The position numbers were made by a program, and so were the translations under genes. Below are positions 53,401 to 54,823 of a DNA stretch of 64,000 nucleotides, in pieces (position 1 is the stretch's first letter; each line of letters opens with the position of its first letter). Below the pieces are notes generated by a model, which saw nothing but the letters and a program-made list of their open reading frames with translations, searched no databases and was not told the origin of the DNA. Source of the stretch: Chthonomonadia bacterium (GTDB taxonomy: Bacteria; Armatimonadota; HRBIN16); the NCBI GenBank assembly GCA_013314755.1, contig JABUFA010000002.1:1-64000 (forward strand), read 5' to 3'.

Positions 53401-54823
53401 GATGGAGCGGGAGGGATTCCATCTGGCGGGCAACACGTTCGTGAAGGGAGAGCAGGTTTACCTGCCCCTGTACGAGGCGAAAATGATCTGGCACTATGAC
53501 CACCGCTACGGCACTTACGAGGGGGTGGACAGCCGCTCCAGCACCGAACTGCCCACGCCGGACGCGACTCAGCACGCTGATCCCGCCTTCGTCGTCCAGC
53601 CCTGGTACTGGGTTCCCGCCGAGGACGTGGAAGCCCGCCTGGGCGACTGGAAGCGCGGGTGGTTATTGGGATTTCGCAATGTAACCAATGCCACAAATGA
53701 ACGAAGCGCGGTCTTTAGCCTGCTGCCAAGAGTCGGGGTGGGGCACTCCATGCCCATCATGTTTGCTCGTCCTGCTAAGCTACATCATGTGGCACTTTTG
53801 GTTGCGAATCTTACCGCACTTGCATTTGATTACTTTGTACGCCAAAAGCTGGGCGGTGTGAACATGACATACAACTACCTACAGCAATTTCCCGTTCTGT
53901 CACCCTCCGCCTACACGCAGGATGATTTGCGTTTCATCGTGCCGCGGGTGCTGGAGCTGGTGTATACCGCGTGGGACCTGAAGCCATTTGCGGACGATGT
54001 GTGGCGGGAGTGGGGAGTGGGGAGTGGGGAGTTGGGAATGGGGAGTGGGGAATGGGGGAAGCAGGTGCGAAACGAGATCATTCGGCAGTGGGAGGCGTGT
54101 CATGGGGTCGCGCTCGGTGAATTCCTATCGCGATTTGGACGCCCGGAAAGAGGTGATGAACCTGGCGGAGATGTGCTATCGCCTGACCGCAACCCTTCCC
54201 AGGGAGGAGCTCTACGGGATAACCGGTCAGATCCGTCGAGCCGCCGTCTCGGTTCTGGCGAACATCGCCGAGGGGTATGGCAGGGAGAATCGTGGGGAAT
54301 ACATTCAATTCTTGCGGATCTCGCAGGGTTCCTTGAAGGAGCTGGAAACCCATCTGCTTCTGATAGTGCGGGTAGGTCTTGGAGCAGAGGAGACAGTCCA
54401 GCCTCTTCTGGACCAGTGCGACCGGGTCGGCCGCATCCTGAGAGCTTTGATTCGCTCCTTGCAGAGATAATCGCCACTCCCCACTCCCCACTCCCCATTC
54501 CCCCCTTCCGCTGGAACGAGGAGCGACGCGCCCGCCTTCGCGCCGAGCTGGACGCCCGTTACGCAAGACTGTACGGTCTCACGCGCAAACAGTTGCGCTA
54601 CATCCTGGACCCGGCGGACCTGACGGAGGCGGAGCTGGAGAACCTGCTGGACCCCTCCGAGGACGTGGAAGACCCACTGGAGCCGAACGAGTATGCCCGC
54701 CGATGCGAGGCAAGCACCTTCCCCGGCGAGACCTTCCGCGTGCTGAAGGAGAAGGAACTGCGCCAGTACGGCGAATACCGTACCCGCCGGCTGATCCTGC
54801 AGGCGTGGCAGCAGATGGAGTGA
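50408..54823 (+). CDS. Eco57I/PglX-like class I N6-adenine DNA methyltransferase (DrmMI-like), contains inserted segment
   Basis: SAM motif 'VLDPACGSGHFLLAAARRLG', catalytic 'VVLGNPPWERIKL'; GTGA overlap with the helicase gene; 1471 aa. Confidence 0.88.
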   Translation: MNVFPAVRIEGGLLASDIPERLLTDDLPGQKPADFGITGRRSLTDEVASLFAQARLQWEVFQHRLARLPDDDPATSVTREGWVVPFLRLLGYELYYNWRAYEVDGLTFAVSHRAGRAEDTPPVHIVGYRQDLGRLAPTGRPRLAPHSLVQEFLNRTEHLWGVVTNGRVLRLLRDSTYVRRQAYIEFDLEQIFQEQRFADFELLFRLLHRSRLPHTPRDAHECLLEQYYQYSLEQGGRVRDRLRDGVEECIKQLANGFLVHPDNQELRERVLGKSTCEAPLSSAELYSQLLRLVYRFLFLLVSEDRGLISADSIYREHYGVARLRRLVDQRSAYTPHEDIWCSLRVLWRTLCDERLARLLGAAPLDGELFAEIDLDRYTIANSDLLKAFRHLAYYRESPSSPLRRVNYAALDVEELGSVYESLLEYHPVVTGDPPRFDLQAGTERKSTGSYYTPPELVAELVKSALEPVIERRLAQAKTAPERERALLSIRVLDPACGSGHFLLAAARRLGKEVARVRTGEEEPAPEVVREATRDVVTHCIYGVDKNPLAVELCKLALWLEAHCAGKPLTFLDHHIRCGDSLVGVTLLETLKAGIPDEAYKRPEYASSLRSLRQRNALEQAGQQTLSELTETQLLDSAVVLEQIMLTPDDTPQQVHQKQQRYAELCQQTETLRRACNLWTAAFFWNAEDAPPPTTGDLHRLLQNPAYVPPQTLAHADALARQHRFFHWCVEFPDVYLQGGFDVVLGNPPWERIKLQEQEFFAGRNREIADAPNAAARKQLIQNLREKDPALWREYQQALRAAEHTSHYLRTCGQYPLTGRGDINTYSVFAERMRRLLKEGGRAGIIVPTGIATDDTNKHFFADLVDRGELVSLYDFENRDALFPHVHRSYKFCLLTVRRGGNATAGRGAEMAFFCTRAEHLRDPRRVFTLSPRDIARLNPNTRTLPVFRTRQDAELTRAIYARVPVLVNERTGENPWGVRFLRMFDMSNDSHLFRTREQMEREGFHLAGNTFVKGEQVYLPLYEAKMIWHYDHRYGTYEGVDSRSSTELPTPDATQHADPAFVVQPWYWVPAEDVEARLGDWKRGWLLGFRNVTNATNERSAVFSLLPRVGVGHSMPIMFARPAKLHHVALLVANLTALAFDYFVRQKLGGVNMTYNYLQQFPVLSPSAYTQDDLRFIVPRVLELVYTAWDLKPFADDVWREWGVGSGELGMGSGEWGKQVRNEIIRQWEACHGVALGEFLSRFGRPERGDEPGGDVLSPDRNPSQGGALRDNRSDPSSRRLGSGEHRRGVWQGESWGIHSILADLAGFLEGAGNPSASDSAGRSWSRGDSPASSGPVRPGRPHPESFDSLLAEIIATPHSPLPIPPFRWNEERRARLRAELDARYARLYGLTRKQLRYILDPADLTEAELENLLDPSEDVEDPLEPNEYARRCEASTFPGETFRVLKEKELRQYGEYRTRRLILQAWQQME
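54006..54058. repeat. G-rich low-complexity repeat, left flank of nested element
   Basis: GGGAGTGGGGAGTGGGGAGTGGGGAGTTGGGAATGGGGAGTGGGGAATGGGGG. Confidence 0.85.
54102..54470 (+). CDS. Four-helix-bundle protein (S23 / 23S rRNA intervening-sequence protein family), nested in the MTase gene in another frame
   Basis: 'SYRDLDARKEVMNLAEMCYRLTATLPREELYGITGQIRRAAVSVLANIAEGYGRENRGEYIQFLRISQGSLKELETHLLL'. Confidence 0.85.
   Translation: MGSRSVNSYRDLDARKEVMNLAEMCYRLTATLPREELYGITGQIRRAAVSVLANIAEGYGRENRGEYIQFLRISQGSLKELETHLLLIVRVGLGAEETVQPLLDQCDRVGRILRALIRSLQR
54474..54505. repeat. C-rich (inverted) low-complexity repeat, right flank of nested element
   Basis: CCACTCCCCACTCCCCACTCCCCATTCCCCC is the inverse of the 54006-54058 repeat. 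Confidence 0.85.

Follow-up and report, generated by a model that had tools for sequence, protein, structure and literature searches.

How does a gene for a DNA methyltransferase come to hold a second, complete gene in another of its reading frames, and continue in frame on the far side? The question is raised by a locus in a 64,000-nucleotide (nt) stretch of DNA from a Chthonomonadia bacterium (contig JABUFA010000002.1, positions 1 to 64,000; hereafter ‘the window’), where a gene of the S23/IVP family lies out of frame inside a long methyltransferase (MTase) open reading frame (ORF). The genome is available as a draft, assembled into 88 contigs with a total of 3.95 Mb. The segment concerned, 54006-54505, is probably a compact mobile element, bounded by repeats and with arms of the foldback type, that belongs to the S23 and intervening sequence (IVS) kind and is tolerated within the MTase gene.

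The inserted segment and its host gene

The first-pass annotation of the window had identified an S23/IVP gene running from ATG 54102 to TAA 54470, out of frame inside the MTase ORF, and had proposed that an IVP-type insert had entered a C-terminal linker while leaving the host ORF open. Both proposals were borne out: the segment is missing from the homologues of the MTase, and the similarity to IVP proteins is highly significant, these being the two points on which that reading could have failed. The 122-residue product matches PF05635 (23S_rRNA_IVP) with an E value of 5.4e-33 and 113.8 bits, against a cut-off of 33.8, and also scores above the cut-offs of TIGR02436 (115 vs 24 bits) and NF008911 (158 vs 137 bits). 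The solved structure of the family is a pentameric four-helix bundle, and its best relative in the PDB is 2gsc (XCC0516). The closest S23 relatives of the window protein are cyanobacterial (65-69%), one of which shares the GGGGAGT unit of the window described below; no tblastn match to S23 was found in phages.

The ORF that surrounds this gene is, from its profile matches, an Eco57I/N6 DNA MTase of a DrmMI-like type, and its frame contains no stop across the segment. Homologues from the genus and the phylum (G048, G005, G024 and G039 among others) align with residues 1-1201 and again with residues 1362-1471, so that recognisable MTase sequence resumes in frame past the insert, and have no counterpart of the middle; in an alignment of four MTase homologues, the insertion point falls between ...PFADDVWR and PPFRWNEERRA.... 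Because the homologues lack the middle segment, it follows that the MTase gene gained an insert and kept its frame.

The anatomy of the insert required amendment. The first-pass annotation made no mention of two inverted arrays of tandem heptamers, which bound the S23 gene (Table 1) and for which shuffles of the window predict zero matches. The two arms are predicted to pair in RNA as a terminal stem (z = -4.8), and S23 is the sole recognised gene inside the element. The region 53000-55500 contains no rRNA match and no match to a group I or group II intron core; a single sub-threshold Rfam match (to a ribosomal protein leader) was returned there at E<=1.

Table 1. Coordinates of the inserted element and of its host gene in the window
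Feature	Coordinates	Strand	Description
Host gene, DNA adenine MTase	50408..54823	+	1471 aa, Eco57I-type / DrmMI-like, frame open across insert
Left arm	54006..54058	+	~7.4 tandem copies of heptamer GGGGAGT/GGGGAAT; unique in genome
Spacer, left arm to S23 start	54059..54101	+	MTase-frame peptide KQVRNEIIRQWEA; GGGAGG at 54090-54095, a possible Shine-Dalgarno
S23/IVP four-helix-bundle gene	54102..54470	+	122 aa; nested in another MTase frame; family profile matches
Right arm	54471..54505	-	4-5 copies of GGGGAGT-type heptamer, inverted (CCACTCC...); begins immediately past S23 stop

Heptamer arms at S23 genes and at orthologous sites

Arms of this type were surveyed at 236 S23 loci, drawn from the organism’s own phylum, from plasmids, from ten named genomes and from 84,980 scanned species genomes (this last set yielding loci from many phyla, one archaeon included). 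Each locus was scored by the best ungapped inverted match between two 300-nt flanks of the S23 domain, one upstream and one downstream; the positions of the domain were consistent with PF05635 coordinates, and antisense profile hits in L040 and L059 were set aside, antisense fragments having been present in the HMM seed. Inverted arms scoring at least 14 were found in 195 loci (83%; median 20.5), as compared with 2.1% when the flanks of different loci were paired and 1.0% when flanks situated 800-1100 nt away at the same loci were used. The best period was 7 in 136 of the 178 arms of at least 22 nt (followed by 8, 9 and 10), and in 178 of the 195 loci with arms the left arm, read along the S23 strand, was richer in G than in C. 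Left arms matched one another with a score of at least 14 in 10/10 pairs of loci at 80-97% S23 identity, in 23% of pairs at 60-80% and in 0.4-4% at lower identity. Because the units vary among elements, yet match between the two arms inside each element, both arms turn over together.

More than one state of the element is preserved at orthologous sites. At a site in Nostoc plasmids, a single intergenic gap is empty in two cases (L296 and L298), is occupied by an inverted heptamer array without S23 in a third (L297), and in two more (L149 and L150) contains S23 flanked by (AGGGAAC)n arms; the left junction is common to the S23-less L297 and the S23-bearing L149. Of 35 Xanthomonas species, 31 have an S23 copy between accB and accC (decayed in L295 at the least), while the other four (L281-L284) harbor an inverted (CGGGACC) array without S23. 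At these two sites, comparison of the sequences supports the view that array-only copies are S23-less derivatives of the element. To judge from a median ratio of nonsynonymous to synonymous substitution rates (dN/dS) of 0.105 among 13 full-length sequences, the Xanthomonas S23 gene is under purifying selection. In the four S23-less arrays the unit differs, and is altered in concert on both arms.

Genome-wide counts, made by pattern matching, gave 161 + 166 matches to (GGGAATC)x3 in X. arboricola and 0 to a reversed-pattern control, and the S23 arms of this genome carry the same GGGAATC units as its solo arrays. Heptameric G-rich repeats (GGGAATC, GGGGAYT) have been described in Xanthomonas and Nostoc, and a Xanthomonas genome was reported, without explanation, to contain 70-75 inverted pairs in convergent orientation (PMC4692102); TAACTGA repeats have been described in Beggiatoaceae (PMC4679880); no mention of S23 was found in either paper. 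The units in Xanthomonas and Nostoc are of the same kind as those considered here, with the difference from all three sets of repeats that the present arrays are the arms of S23 elements or S23-less forms of them.

S23 genes nested in methyltransferase genes

The insertion into an MTase gene, which the first-pass annotation had taken to be an unusual event, is itself secure, but it is not a one-off. A scan of 242 S23 loci for a same-strand ORF that passes through S23 in another frame, and extends at least 100-200 nt beyond both sides, identified 11 such ORF-preserving cases (the window, L040, L045, L061, L152, L160, L164, L169, L174, L185 and L330), which come from different phyla; antisense ORFs across S23 (in L078, L158, L218, L323, L329, L348 and L136) were taken to be mirror-frame ORFs of GC-rich genes rather than hosts. 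All 11 open-frame hosts are DNA MTases, assigned in most cases by homology to the window MTase family and otherwise by Pfam (L169, L174 and L185) or by GSYYTP..DPAVGSG motifs (L330), and the offset of the S23 frame relative to the host is identical in every one. The preference of ORF-preserving copies for MTases thus rests on 11 cases, selected by the open-frame filter.

The nested genes also tend to occupy the same part of the host: six of the 11 lie in the loop between the GSYYTP and DPACGSG motifs, and seven lie in or beside it. The loop measures 39 residues in most S23-free relatives, and 186-231 residues in the five S23-bearing hosts that were measured. In L045, the alignment with the host ends at the left arm and restarts at the right arm, passing from residue 478 of the window MTase to residue 480. 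In a congeneric genome (L013), the same loop is 134 residues long and contains a different tandem repeat, of ~17 residues; because a loop that elsewhere holds S23 has another repeat there, it is regarded as an insertion hot spot. The MTase ORFs of L061, L040, L152, L164 and L330 hold additional in-frame inverted heptamer arrays without S23, which read as ANGEWRMANG / SPLATHHSPL-like stretches of protein.

The MTase frame of the window meets no stop anywhere in the S23 coding region (P=0.02, conditional on the S23 protein and the codons that it uses). The ten hosts tested likewise have 0 host-frame stops through S23, where synonymous shuffling leads one to expect 1.5-3.2, these loci having been chosen for their openness; a fairer comparison is that with 164 other S23 genes, in only 3.7% of which the host-type frame is open. 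In a homology search of 176 loci, the S23 copies flanked by MTase sequence on both sides were open in 10/10 instances. The simplest reading of these sequences is that the host frame has been kept open by selection on the host product. The 164 S23 genes outside hosts display a small deficit of their own, with 5.2 stops in the host-type frame versus 6.0 in synonymous shuffles (P 4e-7) and no deficit in the other frame; a codon-context bias is possible there.

Phase-variable restriction-modification MTases are well known, and the insert might accordingly be viewed as a domesticated phase-variation cassette, in which the gain or loss of single units would switch the C-terminus of the MTase (because 7 nt is not a multiple of three), and in which selection would retain the arrays in defence MTases whether S23 is present or absent. 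The uniform host class of the ORF-preserving copies argues for such a cassette, as do the further in-frame period-7/8 arrays that are frequent elsewhere in the nested MTase ORFs, and that were found in 0/15 S23-free homologues. However, the S23 gene would be dispensable for switching of this sort, and the majority of sampled S23 elements lie outside MTases, so that the proposal, while possible, is rather unlikely.

The host gene of the window is one of three that span 47493-59922. According to their scores against defence profiles, it is preceded by a DpdE/DrmD-like helicase (DpdE 609 bits; DrmD 313 bits) and followed by a DruE3-like SNF2/DEAD protein (DruE3 310 bits), the MTase itself scoring 281 bits against DrmMI; taken together, the three genes resemble a defence locus of mixed DISARM/Druantia type.

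Mechanism, competing explanations and known relatives

If the segment is a mobile element, as is preferred here, its point of entry would have been the C-terminal linker of a DISARM-like MTase gene, where it would have been retained because an insert of this length preserves the frame and because the MTase frame through S23 is free of stops. The MTase is predicted to be made as a single chain that carries a low-complexity insert of ~150 residues, while S23 would be translated from an internal start on the MTase mRNA. The arms, according to folding prediction, would pair into a long hairpin, either in RNA or in single-stranded DNA; S23 may bind that hairpin and so promote the spread or the stability of the element, which would itself spread via a host-assisted process.

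Several observations weigh against this reading. No transposase was found; the window genome contains no match to the reverse transcriptase (RT) profile PF00078; and no genome furnished near-identical copies with demonstrated movement. In its own genome the element is present as a single copy: further copies, for which a search had been proposed in the first-pass annotation, were found neither by a PF05635 profile search of the genome, which returned this gene alone, nor by a search for the heptamer pattern, in which GGGGAGT-type arrays occurred nowhere else in the 3.95 Mb. No significant arms accompany 17% of the sampled S23 loci, and the diverged flanks of the Nostoc site show no clean target-site duplication. 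Finally, the left arm is perhaps not the exact end of the element, because the 43-nt spacer may in part be host sequence: its peptide in the MTase frame, KQVRNEIIRQWEA, is similar to the DLKSAIKKEWEEN of the homologues (empirical P ~0.001).

An alternative is that S23 is simply a gene acquired by ordinary horizontal transfer, and that its arms form a regulatory RNA hairpin around it, acting on transcript stability or in S23 autoregulation. The retention of arm complementarity despite the turnover of arm sequence, the strong predicted terminal stem and the purifying selection on S23 are all consistent with such a role. It would leave unexplained, however, the S23-less arrays at S23 sites, the insertion into host ORFs with host sequence restarting right after the arm, and the identity of the arm units to the genome-wide solo arrays of Xanthomonas, and it is unlikely to account for the element.

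The homology of S23 to Avd, the four-helix-bundle accessory protein of diversity-generating retroelements (DGRs) (PMC10053308), raises the further idea that S23 is an Avd-like partner of an RT which, acting in trans, copies the hairpin RNA. Across the phylum there is a weak co-occurrence of S23 and RT (odds ratio 2.1, P 0.01, uncorrected for genome size). Nevertheless, 97 of the 142 S23-positive genomes of the phylum, the window genome included, have no RT match, on which count an RT in trans was rejected as a requirement, and retro-mobilisation is judged improbable. A chance open frame or a metagenome mis-assembly, to which a draft assembly of 88 contigs could lend itself, is very hard to credit when nesting, frame and host class recur in 11 loci from different phyla and the MTase sequence restarts in frame.

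Foldback-type transposable elements have long inverted termini composed of short tandem repeats. The mobile element favored here shares that architecture, and differs in that S23 elements are bacterial or archaeal, are ~0.5 kb in length, and carry S23 in place of a transposase. In spite of the homology with Avd, the window element is not a DGR (its genome having no detected RT), nor is it a recognised intron or a typical insertion sequence.

The comparison with the IVSs of 23S rRNA (of Coxiella, PMC4990558, and of Leptospira) is closer in anatomy: there too S23/IVP is the sole ORF of an insert of ~0.4-0.5 kb, the inverted termini of which form a long stem. In the Coxiella IVS, tandem GACAGAT heptamers adjoin the S23 ORF near its start, and the inverted termini are cut by RNase III (PMC4990558); in the open-access literature searched, heptamers beside an S23 gene were described in that paper alone. 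In contrast, the window element has tandem arrays as arms on both sides, and its host is a protein-coding MTase gene with an open frame. Because it possesses an IVS-like S23 ORF between stem-forming inverted termini, but lies outside rRNA, it is classed as an IVS variant. An rRNA context was not found among the surveyed loci; a short-motif scan flagged L107/L129 alone (a single place), and Rfam gave L107 no support.

A broader proposal can be put forward tentatively, and with some doubt as to its full scope: that S23 genes mark out a widespread, hitherto overlooked class of very small mobile elements whose arms are arrays of heptamers, a class of which rRNA IVSs and the puzzling heptameric repeats of many bacteria would be special or decayed forms, and that repeated, ORF-transparent colonisation of MTases may have given rise to dual-coded, possibly phase-variable enzymes. 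The S23/IVP family has long been known mainly as an ORF of unknown function in rRNA inserts; the matched inverted arrays give it an anatomy, and that anatomy makes mobility directly testable. The array-only forms at S23 sites offer an origin for the heptameric repeats of Xanthomonas and Nostoc, while the presence of nested, frame-sharing genes in defence MTases, with ORF-preserving copies concentrated in DNA MTases, is surprising in its own right.
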